Of a DNA stretch of 49,171 nt, positions 36,653 through 48,629 are shown one piece after another (position 1 is the first letter of the stretch; each line of letters starts with the position of its first letter). The stretch is from assembly GCA_903939765.1 (NCBI GenBank), contig CAJAIK010000051.1, positions 1 to 49,171 on the forward strand, written 5' to 3'. The notes under the pieces were generated by a model. That model saw nothing but the letters and a program-made list of their open reading frames with translations. It made no database searches and was not told the DNA's origin. The DNA comes from an uncultured Chlorobiaceae bacterium (GTDB lineage Bacteria; Bacteroidota; Chlorobiia; Chlorobiales; Chlorobiaceae). Made by a program: the position numbers and the translations under genes.

Positions 36653-38218
36653 ATGGTAAGTAATAACGGAAATGGAAAATCCCTCGAATCCTGGATCTGG
36701 GATGCGGCATGTTCCATCCGTGGTGCCAAAGATGCGCCAAAGTACAAGGATTTCATCCTGCCACTGATCTTTACCAAGCGGTTGTGCGATGTTTTCGATG
36801 ATGAGGTCAACCGTATCGCGGGGGAGGTTGGTTCGCGGAGGAAGGCCTTTCAGTTGGTCAAGGCCGATCACAAGCTGGTGCGCTTCTTTTTACCCCTGCT
36901 GCCGGACGATCCGGATGAATCGGTATGGTCGATCATCCGCAAACTCTCCTTCAGGATTGGTGAAGGCGTCACCACCCATATGCGGGCCATCGCCAGAGAA
37001 AACCCGCTCCTGCAGGGTATCATCGACCGCGTCGACTTCAACGCCACCACGCACGGCCAGCGGGATATCGACGACGACCGACTCTCCAATCTCATCGAAG
37101 CCATCAGTACCAAGCGTCTCGGGCTCAAGGACGTCGAGGCCGACATCATCGGCAAAAGTTACGAATACCTGATCCGCAAGTTCGCCGAAGGCGGCGGCCA
37201 GAGCGCGGGCGAGTTTTATACACCACCCGAAGTCGGCACCATCATGTCGAGAGTGCTCGCACCCGAACCGGGCATGGAGATCTATGATCCCTGCACCGGT
37301 TCCGGAGGCCTTCTTGTGAAATGCGAAATCGCCATGGAAGAGGAGGCAAAAGGGAGGATGCGCAGCGTCGCTCCGCTCAAGCTCTATGGTCAGGAGTACA
37401 CCGCCGACACCTGGGCCATGGCCAACATGAACATGATCATCCACGACATGGAGGGTCAGATCGAGATCGGCGATACCTTCAAGAACCCCAAATTCCGCAA
37501 CAAACAGGGTAGGCTTCGCACCTTCGACCGAGTCGTCGCCAATCCCATGTGGAACCAGGACTGGTTCACCGAGGCCGACTACGACAACGACGAATTTGAC
37601 CGCTTTCCCGCAGGGGCCGGATTCCCCGGCAAATCCTCCGCCGACTGGGGCTGGGTTCAGCACATGCACGCCAGCCTTAACGAAACCGGCCGCGCCGCCG
37701 TTGTTCTCGATACCGGTGCCGCCTCCCGAGGCTCGGGCAATGCAGGCACCAACAAGGAAAAGAGCGTCCGCCAGTGGTTCGTCGACCACGACATCATCGA
37801 AAGCGTTCTCTACCTGCCCGAAAACCTCTTCTACAACACCACCGCTCCGGGTATTGTGCTGTTCCTGAACAAGGCGAAGGCAAAAGAGCGAGAGCGCCGC
37901 GTGCTGCTCGTCAACGCCAGCAAGATTTTCGAAAAGGGCGATCCCAAGAACTTCATTCCGGACGAAGGCATTCGGCGCATTGCCGATATCCTCATCGGAT
38001 GGAAGGAGGAGGAGAAGCTCAGCCGCATCGTCGATCACGCCGAGCTGAAGAAAAACGACTACAACATCTCCCCCAGCCGCTACATCCACACCAACGACGC
38101 CGAAACCTACCGGCCGATTGCCGAGATCGTCGAAGAGCTGAACGCCATCGAGCTGGAGGCCAAAGAGGCCGATGAAGCCCTGCGGAATATCCTCAGGCAA
38201 CTGGGAGTCGGCGTATGA
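36653..38218 (+). CDS. hsdM: Type I restriction-modification system, methyltransferase subunit
   Basis: N6-adenine methyltransferase of 521 residues. The N-terminal helical domain (SLESWIWDAACSIRGAKDAP, ILPLIFTKRLCDVFDDE) precedes the SAM-binding motif I YDPCTGSGGLL (211-221). Catalytic motif IV reads VVANPMWNQDW (Asn297), with NPMW in place of the common NPPF, a form used by this subfamily. The GEFYTPPEVG link region is intact. AAGGAG lies about 9 bases before the ATG. Its stop overlaps the next start (ATGA at 38215-38218). It is the first gene of a long coupled operon. The base composition is richer in G+C than the hsdS-ABC block. Confidence 0.94.
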   Translation: MVSNNGNGKSLESWIWDAACSIRGAKDAPKYKDFILPLIFTKRLCDVFDDEVNRIAGEVGSRRKAFQLVKADHKLVRFFLPLLPDDPDESVWSIIRKLSFRIGEGVTTHMRAIARENPLLQGIIDRVDFNATTHGQRDIDDDRLSNLIEAISTKRLGLKDVEADIIGKSYEYLIRKFAEGGGQSAGEFYTPPEVGTIMSRVLAPEPGMEIYDPCTGSGGLLVKCEIAMEEEAKGRMRSVAPLKLYGQEYTADTWAMANMNMIIHDMEGQIEIGDTFKNPKFRNKQGRLRTFDRVVANPMWNQDWFTEADYDNDEFDRFPAGAGFPGKSSADWGWVQHMHASLNETGRAAVVLDTGAASRGSGNAGTNKEKSVRQWFVDHDIIESVLYLPENLFYNTTAPGIVLFLNKAKAKERERRVLLVNASKIFEKGDPKNFIPDEGIRRIADILIGWKEEEKLSRIVDHAELKKNDYNISPSRYIHTNDAETYRPIAEIVEELNAIELEAKEADEALRNILRQLGVGV

Positions 38219-38412
38219 TTTATAACAATGCAACAGGATTAAACAGGGCCCAGTCAGGGGTCCAGTCGGAACTAAGTCAGCACCATGTTGGCACTAAGTG
38301 GGCAACAGCCAGAGTAACAGGTCACCCCACCAGTCGCTTCCAAATTTACCGGCTTACGGAAAAAGGCCACAGATTACTGGAAGAGTTGGGCAAGGAAGGA
38401 GGTCGGTTATGA
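38215..38412 (+). CDS. Small ORF ending in a winged-helix tail (copy 1)
   Basis: A 65-residue frame starting in an ATGA overlap with hsdM and ending in an ATGA overlap with the next ORF. The N-terminal half has no recognisable content. The C-terminal part PTSRFQIYRLTEKGHRLLEE LGKEGG resembles the last strand-helix of the winged-helix tail found in AlbA_2/GHKL regulators and Fic proteins (KYRLTxKG pattern). The same tail recurs in the next ORF, so this is probably a degraded duplicate. Translation is likely, function doubtful. Confidence 0.45.
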   Translation: MIYNNATGLNRAQSGVQSELSQHHVGTKWATARVTGHPTSRFQIYRLTEKGHRLLEELGKEGGRL

Positions 38413-38648
38413 GCATTCTCTTGCCCACCGGACAAGTCACGTCACCAGTTACGGCACCAGTCACGGCACCAGTGGGAGAATATGTCACATGGCTCCTTCG
38501 TGACACCTATATCGACCCATCCCTTGCCGACGGACTGGTGGTGCCTACCATCCCTGACAAACCAACCAGTCGCCTCCAGAAATACCGGCTAACTGAAAAA
38601 GGCCGCAGATTGCTGGAGCAGTTGGGTAAGGAAGGAGGACTGTCATGA
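38409..38648 (+). CDS. Small ORF with winged-helix tail (copy 2)
   Basis: A 79-residue frame with AAGGAGG about 5 bases before the ATG. It starts and ends in ATGA overlaps, with the preceding ORF and with hsdS. It opens with a V-T-x-P-V linker repeat (VTSPVTAPVTAPVGEYVTW). A piece like the winged-helix tail of AlbA_2/GHKL regulators follows (LVVPTIPDKPTSRLQKYRLT). Such regulators are often encoded between hsdM and hsdS; here only the tail remains. It may be a vestige kept because it maintains translational coupling to hsdS. Confidence 0.5.
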   Translation: MSILLPTGQVTSPVTAPVTAPVGEYVTWLLRDTYIDPSLADGLVVPTIPDKPTSRLQKYRLTEKGRRLLEQLGKEGGLS

Positions 38649-39907
38649 GCGATTGGAAAAAAACCACAGTTGGTATGGTTTCCACCGGATTTCTCAGCGG
38701 CGGAACTCCAACTACCTCGCGAGCTGATTACTGGAAGGGAGAGATTCCTTGGATTACGAGTAAGTGGCTCGGTGTCAAACTGGAACTCACAAACGGGGAA
38801 AAATTAGTTTCAAAAGAAGCGATTAAACACTCGGCAACCAAAATTGTTCCAAAAGACAGTATCATTTTTGCAACGCGGGTTGGTGTCGGAAAAGTCGGTA
38901 TCAACCGAATCGATCTTGCTATCAATCAGGATCTTGCAGGTATCCTGATCGACAACAAAAACTACGACATCAAGTTTCTCGCTTACCAATTGGGGCTCGA
39001 CTCGATTCAGCAATACGTTGCGATGAATAAGCGTGGAGCTACAATCAAAGGGATCACGCGAGACTGTCTTGAACAGATACGGCTCAACATCCCGCCACTC
39101 CCCGAGCAGAAAAAGATCGCGCACATCCTTTCGACAGTGCAGCGGGCGATCGAAGCGCAGGAGCGGATCATTCAGACCGCCACCGAGCTGAAAAAGGCCC
39201 TCATGCACAAGCTTTTCACCGAAGGCCTCCGAAACGAACCCCAAAAACAAACCGAAATCGGCCCCGTGCCTGAGAGTTGGGCTCTTATAACGTTGGGCGA
39301 GTTATGTGAAAAGCCAAATGGCGCTTTGCAAACAGGGCCGTTTGGTAGCCAGCTTCATAAAGACGAATATCAGGAAACCGGAATCGCTGTGGTGAACCCC
39401 ACCCATCTTGCCGGAAACCGTATCAATCATGAGCGTGTTCCTCATGTCAGTGAGGAGGTTGCGCAGCGCTTAAAGAAACACCGTCTTCGAAAGTTCGATA
39501 TCCTTTTCGGACGACGGGGCGAAATCGGGCGACAAGGCTTGGTCACTGAAGCGGAGGTATCATGGCTTTGTGGAACTGGCTGTTTTCTTGTGCGCGCAAG
39601 CAAACCTTTTATCGATAATCGATTTTTGGCGATCTATTTTGCTACTGATCGGCTTGTGAAGTGGCTCTATTCTCATGCTGCGGGTGCAATCATGCCCAAC
39701 CTCAACAATAGTGTGATGAAACGCTTACCGGTGTTTTATCCTGATCAGGTGACACAAGCCACGATCATCGAAACGTTCGCCATAATTGACCAGAAATTGA
39801 GTGCTGCCATTCAGAGGCAAACCGCGCTCCAAGACCTTTTCCGCACTCTTCTTCAAGAACTGATGACTGCAAAGACCCGCGTTCAAGAAATGGAGATCAA
39901 CAAATGA
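38645..39907 (+). CDS. hsdS: Type I restriction-modification system, specificity subunit
   Basis: DNA-recognition subunit of 420 residues with the usual two target recognition domains. TRD1 (about 1-145) ends in the conserved helix PPLPEQKKIAHILSTVQRAI. TRD2 (about 205-370) begins GPVPESWALITLGELCEKPN and leads to the second helical spacer (TIIETFAIIDQKLSAAIQRQ). AAGGAGG precedes the start. It begins and ends in ATGA overlaps. Codon use is visibly richer in A+T than in hsdM, as is common for exchanged hsdS genes. The target site cannot be inferred. Confidence 0.93.
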   Translation: MSDWKKTTVGMVSTGFLSGGTPTTSRADYWKGEIPWITSKWLGVKLELTNGEKLVSKEAIKHSATKIVPKDSIIFATRVGVGKVGINRIDLAINQDLAGILIDNKNYDIKFLAYQLGLDSIQQYVAMNKRGATIKGITRDCLEQIRLNIPPLPEQKKIAHILSTVQRAIEAQERIIQTATELKKALMHKLFTEGLRNEPQKQTEIGPVPESWALITLGELCEKPNGALQTGPFGSQLHKDEYQETGIAVVNPTHLAGNRINHERVPHVSEEVAQRLKKHRLRKFDILFGRRGEIGRQGLVTEAEVSWLCGTGCFLVRASKPFIDNRFLAIYFATDRLVKWLYSHAAGAIMPNLNNSVMKRLPVFYPDQVTQATIIETFAIIDQKLSAAIQRQTALQDLFRTLLQELMTAKTRVQEMEINK

Positions 39908-41133
39908 GAAGCCCTATCGATTCCCGTAATCAATCTGATCCTGGTGATCATGTTATCAGGAAATTCCGCTATCAGCATGCTTATGGGGTGATTCTTTCAG
40001 TCATGATGATTAACAAGGATCGTCCCTACCGCGCGATTTGGTGTGAGCAGCACGAAGACTTGTTAGCTGAACGCGAAGATGATAAATTTGATGCGTTTCA
40101 GGTGAAAACCCGCAAAGCTGAAAATGGATCGTGGAATATTACAGATGAGGCTTTTGTCAAAAGTATCAAACGCTTCGTGGATTTTGACATCAAGTTCCCT
40201 GACAAGGTCAGGAAATTCTATTTTGTGTCCAACGCCGAGTATTCCATCTCTGATTCGAAAAAGAGTTCCCATCTGAGTCCAGTGAAGCTCTTAGATGCGG
40301 TGAGTAGCACTCAGATCCATAGAGACCTCGTCGGTGACGCAGCAAAAGGATTCGATGCTTTAAGGAGAGCGACAAAGAAACCCGATGATGATCTGTTTTT
40401 AGTTCTTTCACGAGTGGAGCTGGTCAATGGGCCAACTGAGAAGGCATTTGATGACGAGATTTGCCAGAATCATCTTCCGAGAATCAAGGAGTGTCAAGGA
40501 TTGACTCCAAAGTCGCTCTCTAAGGTATTAAACTCACTAATAAGTTTAATGGAGCGTGCAGCTGATGTGCAGTGCTCTGATCCCATGAGGCACTGCTTCA
40601 GCATTACTTCGTCTGACGAAGTTGATCCAGTTCTTCTCGGGAAGAGGATTCTCTCTGAGCATGTTATTTGTACCATTCGAGAAGCATGTGATCTTGGGGT
40701 TCAGTATCCGGAAGAACTCGCAACCTTGAATTTGAATCCCAGCGACAAGGCCCATAGTGTACTTAAAAAAAAGATGGAACGAGGGGGGTTATGGGCGCAA
40801 TTCGAAGCAATGCGAAGACAGGCTCTTACGGCTGAAGCTGAGCTGTTGGAAGTTGCTTCAAGAACGGCAGACGGGAAACAGAAGGTTTCTCAAGTCGAAA
40901 ACGTCGTGCTGTCGGAGTGTGCTGAAGCCAGCCTACGAATGGATCCTCAGGCAAACCCAATTGGCCCTTCTATGCTAATCGATGTTCAGGATCGCTTAAA
41001 GCGGATAGCGAAGGAAACCCCTTCAAAGGTGAATTATCAACCTTATGAAGTGTTAGTTGGAATGGCTGGAATGCTAACGGAAGCCTGCAAAGTTTGGTGG
41101 AGTGAAAAATTCGAACTGGAGGGTGATCAATGA
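39904..41133 (+). CDS. DUF4297/Cap4-like dsDNA nuclease, effector of an ABC-3C system
   Basis: Protein of 409 residues. The N-terminal domain (about 15-200) fits the DUF4297 PD-(D/E)xK nuclease pattern: YQHAYGVILSVMM, an acidic pair in CEQHEDLLAEREDDKFD, and the QVK core in AFQVKTRK (Gln66-Lys68). This type of nuclease is the effector of Cap4 and of several ABC three-component systems. The C-terminal half is helical and not recognised; it may be the partner-binding domain of the system. It is coupled by ATGA overlaps to hsdS and to the middle component. Confidence 0.7.
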   Translation: MRSPIDSRNQSDPGDHVIRKFRYQHAYGVILSVMMINKDRPYRAIWCEQHEDLLAEREDDKFDAFQVKTRKAENGSWNITDEAFVKSIKRFVDFDIKFPDKVRKFYFVSNAEYSISDSKKSSHLSPVKLLDAVSSTQIHRDLVGDAAKGFDALRRATKKPDDDLFLVLSRVELVNGPTEKAFDDEICQNHLPRIKECQGLTPKSLSKVLNSLISLMERAADVQCSDPMRHCFSITSSDEVDPVLLGKRILSEHVICTIREACDLGVQYPEELATLNLNPSDKAHSVLKKKMERGGLWAQFEAMRRQALTAEAELLEVASRTADGKQKVSQVENVVLSECAEASLRMDPQANPIGPSMLIDVQDRLKRIAKETPSKVNYQPYEVLVGMAGMLTEACKVWWSEKFELEGDQ

Positions 41134-41684
41134 GCTTAAAGACAATTTATTTAGCCGCTGACATCGAGAATTCGGATGCGTTTCATTTATCTCGTCTGCT
41201 GCTTCTCCTTCAAGCATGTGGGAAAAAAAACAACAAGCCCGTAGATGGAATTATGAAGCTTGCGAAGCTCGATTTCTTGCTCCGCTATCCTAACTGTCTG
41301 GTCCGTGTTCTCAAAGCGCTCAGGAAAGATAGTCTTGCGGATGGCATTAGCGAAGAGGAACGCAATACGATTGAGGCGCGGATGATTAGGTTTCGATTTG
41401 GACCGTGGGATGATCGATACAGAAAATGGATCAGCCTGTTAGTCGCCAAGCGTTTGGCTCAAACATTCCTTGAGGGCCGTACGGTGAAAATTGTTCTGAC
41501 AGAGAAGGGGCTTGAGCTCGCTGAAAGCCTTGGGAAGAGAGCTGAATTTCATGACCTCTCAGCTCGTAGCAAAATAATATCGATTGTCGTCGGTGATTAC
41601 AATGCGACGAAGCTAAAAGACTTTATATACAGTGTGTTTCCAGAGATTACCACAATGAAATGGGGAGAGGAGATTGAGTTATGA
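41130..41684 (+). CDS. ABC-3C system middle component
   Basis: A 184-residue protein with winged-helix character. The motif GIMKLAKLDFLLRYPNCLVR at about residues 40-59 is the hallmark of the middle components of ABC three-component systems. A winged-helix hairpin follows (GRTVKIVLTEKGLELAESLG). In such systems it is thought to link the SMC-like ABC ATPase to the nuclease. It overlaps both neighbours by ATGA. The family call rests on this motif and the context. Confidence 0.7.
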   Translation: MSLKTIYLAADIENSDAFHLSRLLLLLQACGKKNNKPVDGIMKLAKLDFLLRYPNCLVRVLKALRKDSLADGISEEERNTIEARMIRFRFGPWDDRYRKWISLLVAKRLAQTFLEGRTVKIVLTEKGLELAESLGKRAEFHDLSARSKIISIVVGDYNATKLKDFIYSVFPEITTMKWGEEIEL

Positions 41685-43660
41685 GATTCGTTCTTCAGGA
41701 GTTGCATGTTACTTTCAAGAAGAGCAAAGAGACGATAAAGTTTGCGGATTTCACCTATTTTTATGGCCCGATGGGTGCAGGGAAATCAACGATCGCAAGA
41801 TTGGTTGATTTTTGTCTTGGAGGGCACTTCGGTGAGAAAGAGATGACTCCAGCGTTACAGTCTGAATTCGTTTCTGCAAGTTTATCACTAAAGGTTGAAG
41901 ATACGGAGCTAAATTTGAGACGAGATTCTGGTTCCAACCTCATTCGTGCTAATTGTACCTACGAGAATGAGCCGTTTGAAGTCATGATTCCTGCTCGTAC
42001 CAGCAATGGTGAAGTGATTCCCAAATCCGGAATCGAGGTACTTTCGGACTTGATTTACGTATTGAGTGGTAGAACGCCTCCGAAGGTTCGAAAGAGTAAG
42101 ATCAAGGAGGATTCCGATCTGGCTAGGTTGAGTCTGCGAGATCTTCTCTGGTATTGCTACCTTGACCAGGATTCAATGGACAGTAGCTTCTTCCATCTCG
42201 ACGGAGACGCGCATCCTCACAAAAGACTCAAGAGTCGGGATGTCCTTCGGTTCCTTGTAGGATTCCATCAAGAGCAAGTTTCAGAGCTTGAGGTGAAACT
42301 CGAGCGTCAGCGTGCCGAGAGAGTGAAATGCGAAGCTGGAGCCCAAGCGATAAAAGAAGCCCTCAGCGAAGCAGAGATAGCAACAGAAGTTGAGTTTTCC
42401 GGAATTCGTCAGGAACTGGAACGAAAACTGGCAGCAGTGGATGCCTTGATTCTCTCAATCCGAGAGGATATTGGTTCTACTAAGCCACATGCAATGGACG
42501 GCCTTCAAGTTGAGGCAAGAGCGCTTGCCGAGAAATCATCCGCGATTGAAGAAGCTTCCCGCGAACTAAAGGAAGTTTTGGGTAGAGACAAGTCTCATCG
42601 CAACGAAATCCTCTCACTTTCAACTCGATTTCGACGTTCCCAATCTGCGCGGGAAGTTCTCAGCGGAGTAAATTTTGAGGATTGTCCTCAATGTGGCCGA
42701 GATCTCCCTCAAAGAACAAGCGATGATTGTTCGGTCTGCGGACAAAAGCACTCGAAAGATCCGACAGGGAGTTTGGATGAAGCTAGCGCTGAAAAAGACA
42801 TGGATGCTCGGGTCGCAGAGCTAAATTACCTGATCAAGTGTCACGAAACAGCACTCCGGAGAAATGATCGAATACTTCGGGAACTTAAAGCACAGAAGAC
42901 TTTGGTTGATAGCGAATTAAATCGTGTGGCACGAGATTACGATTCTGCCTATCTTTCAGCCGCCCTTGAATCGGAGAAACAACGAGCGGCAATTCTACAG
43001 CAGCTGTCTGATTTATATAGAATAGAAGTTTTAATCCAAAAAATTGGAGCGCTAAACGACAGGGTCGAACGACTGATTGTGGAAGAACGCAATACGAGGT
43101 CAGAGCTCAAGGACGCGAGAGAAAAGGCTGAAAAGGACACTCAAAACATCAGCCTTCTCAAGAAGCTGTTTCTTGACTGTTTATTGCGCTCCAAGCTATC
43201 GGGATTTTACGCTGACGATTGTGTAGAAATGAAGTCGCCACATTTTCTGCCAGAGGTGACTTCCGCTGGAGGTGGTGATTTGGCGGTGACTTCTTTCAGT
43301 AATCTTGGTAGCGGTGGAAAGAAGACCCTATTTAAGTGTTGTTTTGCTGTCGCCGTTCATCGTCTTGCGTCGAAGATTGGAGCGCTTCTTCCGACTATTT
43401 TGATCATCGACTCACCTATGAAGAATACCAGTGAGCGGCAGAATAGAGAGCAGTTCGAAGGCTTCATAAAGATGCTTTATGAGCTTTCCCAGAAGGAGTT
43501 AAGTAACACCCAATTTGTAGTGGTAGATAAAGAGCTTTTTGCACCTCCTAGTCAGTATTCTCGGTTGTTTTGTTCGCGCCAGATGCAGCCAAATGAGAGA
43601 GGAATGGATTCGAAGAAGAATCCATACCCACCTTTGATTCCATATCATCAAGACAAGTAA
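41681..43660 (+). CDS. SMC/Rad50-like ABC ATPase of an ABC-3C system
   Basis: ATPase of 659 residues. Walker A is GPMGAGKST (29-37). Long coiled coils (about 195-320 and 370-500) flank a central zinc-binding turn with CPQC (Cys335, Cys338) and CSVC (Cys350, Cys353), like a zinc hook. The ABC signature is SNLGSGGKKT (540-549) and Walker B is TILIIDSPM (Asp577). This is the ATPase component of ABC three-component conflict systems, together with the middle component and the nuclease upstream. It probably senses invading DNA structures and gates the nuclease, which is inference from the family. Confidence 0.8.
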   Translation: MRFVLQELHVTFKKSKETIKFADFTYFYGPMGAGKSTIARLVDFCLGGHFGEKEMTPALQSEFVSASLSLKVEDTELNLRRDSGSNLIRANCTYENEPFEVMIPARTSNGEVIPKSGIEVLSDLIYVLSGRTPPKVRKSKIKEDSDLARLSLRDLLWYCYLDQDSMDSSFFHLDGDAHPHKRLKSRDVLRFLVGFHQEQVSELEVKLERQRAERVKCEAGAQAIKEALSEAEIATEVEFSGIRQELERKLAAVDALILSIREDIGSTKPHAMDGLQVEARALAEKSSAIEEASRELKEVLGRDKSHRNEILSLSTRFRRSQSAREVLSGVNFEDCPQCGRDLPQRTSDDCSVCGQKHSKDPTGSLDEASAEKDMDARVAELNYLIKCHETALRRNDRILRELKAQKTLVDSELNRVARDYDSAYLSAALESEKQRAAILQQLSDLYRIEVLIQKIGALNDRVERLIVEERNTRSELKDAREKAEKDTQNISLLKKLFLDCLLRSKLSGFYADDCVEMKSPHFLPEVTSAGGGDLAVTSFSNLGSGGKKTLFKCCFAVAVHRLASKIGALLPTILIIDSPMKNTSERQNREQFEGFIKMLYELSQKELSNTQFVVVDKELFAPPSQYSRLFCSRQMQPNERGMDSKKNPYPPLIPYHQDK

Positions 43661-43663
43661 CCG

Positions 43664-43891
43664 ATGCCCATATCTTTCAAACAAAAAACCGTCGAAACGA
43701 GAATAGTGACGTATACACAAAACGTCGGATGGAACTTTGTGCCCCGTGAGGAGGCCGAAGGATGGCGAGGGTTTGATCCAGAGATGCCGCATCGACGATG
43801 GCCGTTTTCCTATTTGAAACTCACGAACAAACGAAATGATCATCATGAACATCGTCATCACGATCTACATCTTGATTATCACTTTCATTGA
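43664..43891 (+). pseudogene. Truncated 5' end of an hsdR gene
   Basis: Starting 3 bases after the ABC ATPase stop, the first 42 residues (ETRIVTYTQNVGWNFVPREE, then GFDPEMP) align with the start of the intact HsdR at 45708 ([26 protein letters not shown]). After about 43790 the similarity ends abruptly and the frame runs to a stop in unrelated His-rich sequence. At DNA level the two copies differ at many positions, so this is the remains of a related but different hsdR, not a recent duplication. It would be the original end of the coupled operon. Confidence 0.8.
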
Positions 43892-43930: not shown

Positions 43931-45418
43931 ATGGCAGCTAAACAGAAATTTAATTCTCGCGAGCTGATGGAGAAAGCCATCGCTGCAATGAAGCAATCGA
44001 TCAGTGAGCCGCGCGTAGACGGAAATGTGACACCTAAAGTGGGCGCGGCTCTTTGGAAGCCGGACGGAACCATCGAGACTGCTTTCCGTGGCGAACTGCG
44101 ATATGGAGATCATGCGGAATTCACTTTACTGGAGCGGAAGAATCGGCCAAATGCCCTTGATCGTTGCATTCTGTTTGCTACTCTTGAACCCTGCGCTCCC
44201 GGAGCTCGGAACCATCCGAAGCTGAGTTGTGCTGAGCGTATCGTGAATGCCCGAATCAAGGAAGTCTGGGTCGGTTGTCAGGATCCACATCCAAAGGTGG
44301 CTGGAAAAGGATTTCGGTTTCTTAAAGACAAAGGTGTCATTGTTCATTTCTTTGACCGTGACCTGCAGGAGGTGATTGAAAAGGAGAACGATGAGTTTTT
44401 CAGGCAAGCCCAAGCCGCAGCCGAAAAACAGAAGCACGAATGGACGCCAGCCATAGCGGAGTATGACAAGGTCATGCAGGACGTTGATGTTAACGATTTG
44501 TCATCGGATGCTCTTAACAGCTATCAACTTATGCTTATGGGCAAAGGGCGCCACAAGGAGGATGAGTTTTATCGGAGGCTTTGCCATCAAGGGTTGCTCG
44601 AAAAGGTAAAAGACAAGATTCGCCCGACGGGTTTTGGCCTGCTCTTGTTCGCCCGGCATCCTCGTGACATGATGGCCCAGGCAGGAATTCTTGGCTCTAT
44701 CTTCAAAGATGGTAAGGAGGAACTGAAAGATTTTGATGGACCGATGGTTCTCGCACCGCAACAGACGATTCAATGGCTCCGGGACAAATTGCCAAATCCG
44801 ATTTTACGGACGGAGGCGCAACGTAAAGAGCAGAACGAAATTTATTATGAGCTTATTCGAGAAGGGGTGGTGAATGCCCTCGTTCATCGTGATTATGGAA
44901 TCAAGCAAGCTAAGATTCAACTTGTGGTGACAGAGGAGAAAACGGTGATCCGTAGTCCTGGAACGCCTATGGAACCGGTCACCTTAAAGCAGTTGCAGGA
45001 ATTTAACGCTCCAATGTTCAGCCGAAATCCGAGGCTTCATGCGGTTTTCAATACTATGGAGTTGGCCGAGGAACGAGGGTTTGGGCTTCACTCAATGCGG
45101 GAGCGTGCCAAGCAAGCAGGGCTACCTCTTCCCAAGTATGCATGGAATGATCCCTATCTTGATTTGACGATATATCGGACGGCTGAAAGTGCGACGAAAA
45201 CATTAGACGAAGTCATTCTCACAGAACTTAATAACGCAGAGAAAAATGGTTGGTCGTTCATAGTGAGCTCAGGAACCATAACTCAAAGTGAATATGTCCG
45301 AGAAATGGATGTTACGCCACGTACGGCGCAACGGCATTTGTCCCATTTCGTCGATTTGGGATTGCTTCAGCGAATAGGGAGCGGGCCAGCTACAACATAC
45401 CAGGTAATTCAGTCATAA
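43931..45418 (+). CDS. RibD-like deaminase fused to GHKL ATPase-like and winged-helix domains
   Basis: Protein of 495 residues with three parts. Residues about 10-150 form a RibD/CDA-type deaminase with zinc ligands and proton carrier His61-Glu63 (GDHAEFTLL), Cys88 and Cys100 (TLEPCAPGARNHPKLSCAER), then VWVGCQDPHPKVAGKGFRFL. Residues about 215-400 match the HATPase_c_4 half of AlbA_2-type regulators: N-box EGVVNALVHRDY (311-322), IRSPGTPMEPVTL, FSRNPRLHAVF, GFGLHSM. The C-terminus (about 415-495) is a winged helix (VTPRTAQRHLSHFVDLGLLQ). It has no riboflavin reductase domain and no rib genes nearby. Its place inside the restriction island points to defence. The substrate is unknown. Confidence 0.8.
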   Translation: MAAKQKFNSRELMEKAIAAMKQSISEPRVDGNVTPKVGAALWKPDGTIETAFRGELRYGDHAEFTLLERKNRPNALDRCILFATLEPCAPGARNHPKLSCAERIVNARIKEVWVGCQDPHPKVAGKGFRFLKDKGVIVHFFDRDLQEVIEKENDEFFRQAQAAAEKQKHEWTPAIAEYDKVMQDVDVNDLSSDALNSYQLMLMGKGRHKEDEFYRRLCHQGLLEKVKDKIRPTGFGLLLFARHPRDMMAQAGILGSIFKDGKEELKDFDGPMVLAPQQTIQWLRDKLPNPILRTEAQRKEQNEIYYELIREGVVNALVHRDYGIKQAKIQLVVTEEKTVIRSPGTPMEPVTLKQLQEFNAPMFSRNPRLHAVFNTMELAEERGFGLHSMRERAKQAGLPLPKYAWNDPYLDLTIYRTAESATKTLDEVILTELNNAEKNGWSFIVSSGTITQSEYVREMDVTPRTAQRHLSHFVDLGLLQRIGSGPATTYQVIQS

Positions 45419-45422
45419 AAGT

Positions 45423-45608
45423 GACATAAATCATGATGTTGTGTTTCGATGTAATGGTAAAAACGTATAAGTGGTAGTTATCGCGACATGAATCACGACA
45501 CTATGTCGCGATGTAATGGTAAAAATGTATAAGTGGTAGTTATCGCGACATGAATCACGACATTATGTCGCGATGTAACGGCAAAAGTGAATAAGTAATA
45601 GCAATCGC
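45423..45608. repeat. 62-bp tandem repeat array with internal hairpins
   Basis: Three full copies start at 45423, 45485 and 45547, exactly 62 bases apart, and a decayed fourth begins at 45609. Copies 2 and 3 hold a perfect 9-bp inverted repeat TCGCGACAT/ATGTCGCGA around 13 bases (45481-45511 and 45543-45573). In copy 1 this stem is degraded. The rest of the unit (GTAATGGTAAAA, GTATAAGTGGTAGTTATCGC) is well conserved. It fills the gap between the deaminase fusion and hsdR. It could be a set of operators or structured RNA. It is not CRISPR, because the whole unit repeats. Confidence 0.9.
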
Positions 45609-45707
45609 GACAGTAAATAGTGATTTGTTGACGAAAGTAAAAGCAATGCGAGTTTCTGTATAATTGCTGCTAAATATAATTTCAATAAGAGCCTATACGA
45701 GAACACG

Positions 45708-48629
45708 ATGCCCATACCCTCCGAACATAAAACCGTCCAGGCCCGCATTCTTGCCTACGCGCAAAACGTCGGATGGACCGTTGTTCCCCGCGAGGAAGCG
45801 GAGAGGCGGCGCGGGTTTGATCCAGAGCTACCGTCTGTCGAGCGAGCCAGAAACCTCTCGCTCTTTTTCGACGATCTGTTCGACGCCAAGGTTCGGGAGT
45901 TCAACCCGTGCTATTCCGAGGCCGAGGGCGCCCTGCTCGGACAGTTCCGCCATCTTCATGCAGATATTTACGGCAACCGGGAATTTGTGGAGCACCTGCG
46001 CAATCGGGGCAAGTTCTTCGACCATGAAGAAAACCGTGAGCGCGACCTGATCCTGATCGATTACGATGAACCGGCGCGGAACGTTTACGAAGTTACCGAG
46101 GAGTGGGCCTTTCACAACGGCCACTACGGCACGCGGGAGGATGTTGTTTTTCTCATCAACGGCATCCCGGTGCTGGTGATCGAGTGCAAGAATGCCGGCA
46201 AGGAGGAGGCGATTGCCCTCGGGGTTGATCAGATCCGCCGATACCATCGTGAAACGCCTGAGCTGTTCGTGTCGCAGCAGCTATATACTGCCACCGACGC
46301 CATCGGTTTTTCCTATGGGGTGAGTTGGAACACGGTGCGGCGGAACATTTTCAATTGGAAGGACGGGGAGCTTGGCAAGCTGGAGGCGAAGGTGAAGAGC
46401 TTCTGCGCCATCCCGCAGGTGCTCGACTTCCTGAAAGAGTACATCCTCTTTGCCGAGAAGGACGAGGAGCTGAACAAATACATCCTGCGTCAGCACCAGA
46501 CCGGCGCGGTGGAGCAGGTGGTCAGGCGCGCCCTTGATCCCGCTCGCAGACGCGGTCTCGTCTGGCATACCCAGGGGAGCGGCAAGACCTTCACCATGAT
46601 CAAGGCTGCGGAGCTGCTCTTTCGCGCACCGGATGCAGAGAAGCCGACCATCCTTCTGATGATCGACCGGAACGAGCTGGAAGACCAGATGCTCAAAAAT
46701 CTTGCTGCGCTGGGGCTGGGCAATCTGGAACATGCCACCAGCATTACCCGGCTCAATAAGCTGTTGCGCGACGACTACCGGGGCATCATTGTCTCCATGA
46801 TCCACAAGTTCCGTGATATGCCTGCCAATATCAACACCCGCACAAACATCTATGTCCTGATCGACGAGGCGCACCGCACAACGGGTGGTGATCTGGGTAA
46901 CTTCCTCATGGCCGGGCTGCCGAACGCCAGTTACATCGGTTTTACCGGTACCCCGGTTGACAAGACCGTCTACGGCAAGGGTACCTTCAAGACCTTCGGC
47001 TGCGAAGATGACAAAGGCTACCTGCACAAGTATTCCATTGCCGAGAGCATTGGCGACGGCACGACGCTGCCGCTCTACTACGCTCTTGCCCCGAACGAGA
47101 TGCTGGTGCCGCATGAAATCCTCGACAAGGAGTTCCTTTCCCTGGCCGAAGCCGAGGGTGTTGCCGATATCGAGGAGCTGAACAAAATCCTTGATCGGGC
47201 GGTGAACCTGAAGAACTTCCTCAAGGGCAAAGCGTGCATTCGGGAGGTGGCCCGATTTGTTGCGGATCACTACCGGGAAAATGTTGAGCCGCTGGGGTAC
47301 AAGGCTTTTCTGGTCGGCGTCGACCGCGAGGCCTGCGCCCTCTATAAACATGCGCTGGATCAGTTCCTGCCTCCAGAATATTCCGAGGTCGTCTACACCG
47401 GCAACAACAATGACTCTGCACTGCTCAAGGAGTTTCACCTCGACCCCAAAAAGGAGCGGCAGATCCGCAAGAGCTTTGGCAAACTCGACCAGCAGCCGAA
47501 GATCCTGATCGTCACAGAGAAACTGCTCACCGGCTTCGACGCGCCCGTGCTCTATGCGATCTATCTCGACAAGCCGATGCGCGACCATACCCTGCTGCAG
47601 GCCATCGCAAGGGTGAACCGTCCCTATGAAAACGAGTTGCTGGAGATGGTGAAGCCGCACGGCTTTGTGCTCGATTTTGTTGGTATTTTCGACAAGCTGG
47701 AGAAGGCGCTCTGTTTCGACAGCGAAGAGATTAATGCCATCGTCAAGGATATCAAGCTCCTGAAGGTGCTGTTCCGGAACAAGATGGAGCAGCAGGCCCC
47801 TGGATACCTTGGGCTGATTGAACGGAACTTTGACGACAGGGATGTCGATACCCTGATCGAGCACTTCCGCGATCCGGAACGGCGCAAGGCCTTTTTCAAG
47901 GAGTACAAGGAGATCGAGATGCTCTACGAAATCATCTCCCCTGATGCCTTTCTGCGCCCCTTCATCGATGATTACAGCTCTCTTTCGGCGATGTATGCTG
48001 TTGTGAGAAATGCCTATACCCGGCGCGTTATGGTCGATCGCGCATTTCAGAGAAAGACCAGTGAGCTGGTTCAGAAGTATGTCGGAAGCAGTTCCATTCA
48101 GCCTGTCAGCGAAATACTGGAAATCAACGAAGAGACCGTAAGGTATATTGCCAACCGCAGAGGCGGAGATGGGAAAAAGGTCATTAACCTGGTCAAGAGT
48201 ATTGAAAAAATAGCGGAAGATGAGAGCGATGACCCGTATCTGATCGCCATGGCCGAGCGGGCTCAGGCGGTACAGCAGAGTTTTGAGGATCGCCAGACCA
48301 GCACGGCTGAAGCGCTGGATACATTATTGAGGGAAGTTGAGGCGAACGAGGCTCGAAAAAGGGAGCAGGCAGAGAAGGGCTTTGACGGGCTGACCTACTT
48401 TGTCTATCGTACGCTCCTTGATGCACAGATAGAAAACCCGGAAGAGGTGAGCCGCAGGATCAGGCAGGCCTTCATCGAGTTTCCCAACTGGAAAAAGAGT
48501 GAAAATTCCCTGCGCGAATTGCGCAAGAAGGTGACCTTCGCCGTTCTTGCCCATAGTGATGACCTGGAGCAGGTGACGGCTCTGGTGGAGCAGCTTTTCA
48601 GGCTGCTTGAAAAGGCAAACAGGATATAA
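45708..48629 (+). CDS. hsdR: Type I restriction-modification system, restriction/translocase subunit
   Basis: ATP-dependent translocase-endonuclease of 973 residues, full length. The N-terminal PD-(D/E)xK nuclease shows [10 protein letters not shown] (Glu159, Lys161). The SF2 helicase motor has Walker A QGSGKT (289-294), DEAH-type IDEAHRT (386-389 DEAH) and FTGTPVDK. The second motor domain has [20 protein letters not shown] and [10 protein letters not shown] (motif VI). The C-terminal helical region binds the methylase. It is separated from hsdMS by the ABC-3C genes, the truncated hsdR start and the deaminase gene. A metallopeptidase gene follows 4 bases later. Confidence 0.96.

Follow-up and report, generated by a model that had tools for sequence, protein, structure and literature searches.

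What does a tandem array of 62-bp repeats do between two genes of a type I restriction locus? The question is raised by a stretch of 49,171 bp from an uncultured Chlorobiaceae bacterium, the whole of which is called the window here. The locus is arranged in the order hsdM, hsdS, three Lamassu-type genes, a gene for a deaminase-GHKL-wHTH fusion protein, the array and hsdR (Table 1). Little is known about the transcriptional control of type I restriction genes, and no description of the array or of the fusion was found in the open-licence literature. We give a probability of about two in three to the reading that the array is an operator, which is read by the wHTH domain of the fusion protein and controls the next gene, here hsdR.

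Table 1. Features of the restriction locus and of the array, in positions of the window
Feature	Position	Strand	Basis or remark
hsdM	36653..38218	+	domain profiles (Pfam/NCBIfam)
hsdS	38645..39907	+	domain profiles
Lamassu-type LmuA, LmuC, LmuB	39904..43660	+	PADLOC; between hsdS and fusion gene
Truncated copy of hsdR 5' end	43662..43789	+	75% identical to 45706-45833; precedes fusion gene
Fusion regulator gene, 495 aa	43931..45418	+	Pfam/NCBIfam, AlphaFold model, structure matches
wHTH-coding part, candidate array reader	45212..45415	+	structure model; changed together with array, G440 vs G441
Array copy 1	45419..45480	+	decayed
Array copy 2	45481..45542	+	intact; half-sites 45481-45488 (+), 45493-45500 (+), 45504-45511 (-)
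Array copy 3	45543..45604	+	intact; half-sites 45543-45550 (+), 45555-45562 (+), 45566-45573 (-)
Array copy 4	45605..45640	+	remnant: first half-site 45605-45612 only
hsdR, putative target gene	45708..48629	+	Pfam HSDR_N, SWI2_SNF2; TIGR00348

The fusion protein consists of a RibD-type deaminase (residues ~1-165), a linker, a GHKL ATPase (HATPase_c_4, PF13749, E 9.6e-15; ~296-425) and a C-terminal wHTH (~432-495). Its AlphaFold model (pLDDT 81.7) places the wHTH at residues 435-492, with the recognition helix at 463-475. The preliminary description of this DNA, made from the letters and open reading frames, had already placed the array behind a winged-helix protein that is a deaminase fusion, and the wHTH is indeed present at the C-terminus of the model. 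The model matches RibG over residues 8-163 (VIA-align Z 20.6) and DIP2311 (3lmm) over 120-419 (Z 21.2, 225 residues). The zinc site of the deaminase, HAE plus PC...C, is formed by H61, E63, C88 and C100, which are invariant in 11 aligned proteins.

Two further features of the locus lie outside the fusion gene and its array. Tandem repeats of 11 and 12 bp are found between hsdM and hsdS (window 38264-38304 and 38435-38473). This region seems to be what is left of a DUF4062-type regulator; in close relatives, 12-bp repeats are present in the coding linker, ahead of the C-terminal domain. The hsdS-hsdR interval of Chlorobium type I loci houses varying defence cargo (window 39904-43660; L037 7896-11091; L038 8123-10354; L073, L081, L082), which includes Lamassu, SIR2 with a short pAgo, a PrrC-like AAA protein and HipA-like genes, the last identified by reading only.

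The period of the array is exactly 62 bp, as had been described. TRF reports 2.7 copies at 45447-45612 (90% matches, score 262), and ungapped 62-bp copies begin at 45423, 45485 and 45547. When counted by its half-sites, the array begins directly after the stop codon of the fusion gene and comprises two intact and two decayed copies between this gene and hsdR. The TCGCGACAT/ATGTCGCGA stems that had been noticed in two copies are located in copies 2 and 3, and it is the outer copies 1 and 4 that have decayed, again as described. The arms of the palindrome thus stand, but the simple palindrome does not, because a third, direct half-site, TCACGACA, lies 12 bp past the first and had been overlooked. 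An intact unit therefore contains three near-equal half-sites, two direct ones 12 bp apart and then an inverted one, in the order TCGCGACA, TCACGACA at +12 bp and inverted TGTCGCGA past a 3-bp gap. Two units are observed in 250 bp of the window, versus 0.005 expected from dinucleotide shuffles. When the unit was sought elsewhere in the 2.98-Mb genome, the whole 218-bp array was found once only. The pattern CGACA N7 CGACA N3 TGTCG has matches in only 5 of 65 Chlorobium genomes. A looser palindrome gives scattered single matches in the same genome at about twice the control count, and so no regulon is claimed.

The array was compared among 12 homologues of the fusion gene, taken from the window, which its named relatives place in a Chlorobium genome, from three further Chlorobium genomes and from eight genomes that are more distant but belong to the same phylum. 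All 12, which are not independent since they include the four Chlorobium loci and two close pairs, have between one and three units in the 250 bp that follow the stop codon (0.0025-0.01 expected from dinucleotide shuffles), and none carries a unit in the 250 bp on the 5' side. The palindromes, whose absence near homologous genes had been set beforehand as part of what would overturn the operator idea, are therefore conserved beside every homologue found. An array upstream of the gene was at one point read in G100; this was rejected after the orientation of the locus was corrected, and the array is downstream there too. The half-site words differ by lineage (TCGCGACA, CTTGGACA, CATAGACA, TCTCGCCA, ATCCCGCA, TTCCGGCA), and the geometry is nearly constant, with a direct spacing of 12 bp (11 in the TCGCCA type) and a gap of 3-4 bp. 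The period is 60-63 bp, or 72 bp in G100 and G455, which is one helical turn more; in these two a fourth half-site makes the unit fully symmetric. No full-length homologue of the fusion was found in the plasmid collection, the phage collection or the E. coli genomes.

The homologues G440 and G441 point to the wHTH as the reader of the array. The deaminase, middle and ATPase parts of the two fusion proteins share 79-90% identity, whereas their wHTH domains share only 29%. At the DNA level, they agree mostly at 70-88% up to codon ~420 and at 27-58% over the wHTH and the array, and agreement is back at the start of hsdM. The half-site changes along with the wHTH, from CATAGACA to TCTCGCCA, and one unit of the old CATAGACA type is left in G440 beside hsdM. 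A second case is provided by G364. Its protein is sister to the Chlorobium proteins in the tree (support 100/99), and its xNH recognition helix and xGCA sites are as in G100 and G455. Proteins with an xRH recognition helix pair with GACA words, and G482 has QRQ. Because the letters of the half-site change together with the wHTH in these cases, the comparison argues that the wHTH would be what binds the array. The independent co-changes number two or three only, and the G440/G441 difference is a single contiguous block, through which the array may have come by linkage.

The gene behind the array was compared in the same way. In Chlorobium, hsdR genes accompanied by the fusion gene (n=4) or by a wHTH remnant only (n=2) have one to three units upstream, and hsdR genes without the fusion have none (0/6). 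The units thus follow the fusion or the wHTH remnant and are missing at other hsdR genes, which indicates that the array belongs to the regulator gene and not to hsdR. The idea of an operator for hsdR, as first proposed, is accordingly strengthened by the conservation, by the regulator-linked presence and by the co-change with the wHTH, and is qualified in one respect, in that the array is tied to the regulator and not to hsdR as such. The gene after the array is hsdR in the four Chlorobium loci, hsdM in G440 and G441 and a DprA-like gene in G067 and G482; in G455 it is the start of an unread gene, and G364, G100 and G509 have no clear target. In 8 of the 12 loci, and likewise in several relatives, the array separates the regulator from a closely following gene on the same strand, which is mostly hsdR, hsdM or DprA-like. 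A restriction gene is absent near the G100 array, and in G509 (L065 3127-6345) a CBASS cyclase and a 2TM effector precede the fusion gene, which has attC-like repeats on either side. No consensus promoter was found on the + strand near the array, although Chlorobium promoters may differ from the consensus.

Partial forms of the module also occur. A fossil in L044 (G005:C4:92734-92758) retains the last ~20 codons of the fusion gene and one array unit, without hsdR. In L035 and L036, from two genomes, a 45-codon ORF joins the start of the post-hsdS gene to the wHTH end, and one array unit precedes hsdR. Apart from these, a related RibD-type deaminase is encoded on a viral contig (L053 4282-5316); its N-terminal part differs, and no GHKL/wHTH part was seen in it.

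Other GHKL-wHTH genes of the phylum show a comparable arrangement. Among 21 loci analysed, 6 have 11-bp direct repeats no more than 300 bp past the stop codon, and 4 have 11/12-bp repeats in the coding linker. Repeats at 10 or 13 bp were not found in the same loci, and other spacings, e.g. 9 bp, do occur. In L231, L234, L237, L238, L240 and L252, the 11-bp direct repeats lie within ~31 bp 3' of the GHKL-wHTH stop codon. It is hsdM that comes next in L237 and L238, and hsdR in L234; the following gene has a weak SWI2_SNF2 match in L231 and no Pfam match in L252. That regulator, array and restriction gene recur in this order is our main reason to propose an operator of the next gene. A control found no three-half-site units beside other GHKL-wHTH genes, which suggested an array limited to the deaminase branch; this reading was too narrow, as many relatives have 11/12-bp direct repeats instead.

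Single units are also found in phages. The exact Chlorobium-type unit is present in six viral contigs, and a version with 13-bp spacing in none. Four viral contigs carry a TCTCGCCA-type unit beside tRNA-like sequences (read by eye). Single three-half-site units in L097-L102, L122, L131 and L223-L226 share the words ATCGCGACA, TCTCGCCA, CATAGACA and CACGACA with the bacterial arrays. They are mostly intergenic, some adjoin tRNA genes, and differing words stand side by side in L098 and L122. Among the matches listed, which come mostly from a few phage clades and carry no enrichment figure, TGGACA-type units lie between ssb-like and uvsX-like genes (named by eye; L103, L106, L116, L127, L136, L145 and others), with variable but matching outer stems, a retained inner half-site and a T-rich tail. 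No clear wHTH relative was found in eight viral records that carry units. Since the phage copies share both words and geometry, neither is confined to the fusion module.

We would go beyond this locus only with considerable doubt. It is conceivable, if rather speculative, that the GHKL-ATPase wHTH proteins make up a large class, so far undescribed, that regulates restriction and other defence genes, each with its own operator array at the 3' end of the gene, in the linker-coding part or just past the stop codon. The wHTH and array would then be a swappable specificity cassette, and the single matching sites of phages might be decoys or might serve the phages themselves.

For the operator itself, the following mechanism is proposed. 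The wHTH domains of an oligomer would bind the three half-sites of a unit cooperatively, and the 62-bp period, about six helical turns, would set the units on one face of the helix. Once bound, the fusion protein would control how the gene that follows the array, hsdR in this case, is transcribed, and the restriction subunit may thereby be set apart from the upstream hsdM, hsdS and Lamassu genes. The GHKL ATPase and deaminase domains might sense a nucleotide or an infection signal that alters binding. The comparison of homologues supports the tie between array and regulator gene and the joint change of half-site letters and wHTH, and it suggests the binding step; control of hsdR, its sign, the oligomeric state and the signal are inferred, and repression is the more likely sign.

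The same binding could serve another end. The wHTH-bound array might act on the fusion gene itself, as a roadblock in autoregulation at its 3' end or as a tether or sponge that keeps a deaminase-ATPase effector inactive until DNA is attacked, with hsdR a mere neighbour. We regard this as unlikely, although several observations agree with it: the array accompanies the fusion gene in every homologue, even where no restriction gene follows (G100, G509), direct repeats flank gene and array as one unit in 6 of 12 loci, relatives hold direct repeats within their own coding linker, and the four zinc-site residues of the deaminase are invariant. The position of the array 3' of the fusion gene, and not at its promoter, speaks against it, as do the same-strand genes, mostly hsdR, hsdM or DprA-like, that follow shortly past the array in 8 loci and several relatives. 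The flanking repeats are 103-520 bp long and 74-90% identical (0/200 random pairs at E 1e-15). They derive from the hsdR 5' end in the window (Table 1), G012 and G001, from the 5' end of the DprA-like gene in G067, from part of another gene in G100 (L041, up to 520 bp) and from an attC-like repeat in G509 (L065). It is as if a module of gene and array had been inserted with target duplication; restriction systems are known to insert with target duplications of roughly 100 bp (PMC3874152). The flanking repeats, the G005 fossil with its gene end and one unit, and the deletion derivatives G055 and G034, which lost units, could also suit a non-regulatory array that marks the terminus or scar of a mobile element, as a recombination site. 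This we consider highly improbable: the module contains no recombinase, the flanking repeats vary in sequence and length and lie away from the array edge, and recombination sites need not change together with a wHTH.

A structured RNA had been offered from the beginning as the alternative to an operator, and it is now the less supported of the two. The repeats would then fold into hairpins, within the 3' UTR of the fusion transcript, the hsdR leader or a small RNA, and the fusion protein might bind them. In its favour, the outer arms are complementary at 8/8 positions in 17 of 29 listed units, while the two direct sites agree in 4 of 29, and the TGGACA-type phage copies have variable matching outer stems followed by T-runs, which resemble terminators. 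In contrast, the fold energy of the array is ordinary (z -1.4; 19 of 200 shuffles equally good), G-U pairs are rare among the stem mismatches (2/13), and most units keep the inner half-site, which is superfluous for a single hairpin. No terminator was found near the array by scan, the array matches no Rfam RNA (the only match in the window is a tRNA elsewhere), and relatives display direct repeats. Taken together, an RNA role seems improbable to us, and the most likely reading is that the array is the operator of a restriction-gene regulator of a new type.

On the operator reading, regulator and operator can be tested here as a pair, for which G440 and G441 supply a natural change of specificity. 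The deaminase and ATPase are a likely built-in sensor, and the DNA signature of the array may help to find regulator and target across many defence loci.

Known systems resemble this one in part. The array does not look like the RNA of a type III toxin-antitoxin system, as it lies behind the gene, has no terminator and accompanies a gene outside the ribonuclease families. With RibD/RibG, the fusion protein shares the deaminase fold and the zinc-binding residues, which predict a deaminase here; unlike RibD/RibG, it has no reductase domain, is joined to a regulator and has a PC-x11-C spacing, which is longer than the usual deaminase spacing. The GHKL-wHTH proteins that resemble DIP2311 (3lmm), which annotations often call ATP-binding or RNA-binding domain proteins, have the same ATPase fold, with HATPase_c_4 followed by a C-terminal wHTH, and several of them also have 11/12-bp direct repeats at the 3' end of the gene. 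The deaminase branch differs from them in its three-half-site unit in tandem and in its N-terminal RibD-type deaminase, which takes the place of the AlbA_2 (Schlafen-like) domain of classical members.

Two regulators of restriction genes are closer in logic. RptR, too, is a regulator dedicated to a type I restriction locus. Its sites form a short series of repeats there, and the locus has defence genes embedded in it, DarTG2 lying between hsdS and hsdR as Lamassu does here (PMC12255303). RptR is a 9-kDa single-domain protein, for which binding was shown, and its TAGCTA sites overlap the promoter before its own gene (PMC12255303). In contrast, the protein here is a 495-aa deaminase-GHKL-wHTH fusion with inferred binding, and its sites are TCGCGACA-type units of three half-sites with a 62-bp period behind the gene, with no units in the 250 bp 5' of it. 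The C proteins and C-boxes of type II systems are also regulator-operator pairs for restriction genes that exist in several specificities (incompatibility groups), and C proteins are small lambda-cI-like HTH proteins (PMC3874152). No small XRE-type domain of this kind was detected in the neighbour genes scanned with Pfam/NCBIfam. The fusion protein and its array would follow a logic similar to that of RptR and the C proteins, but they belong to neither group.
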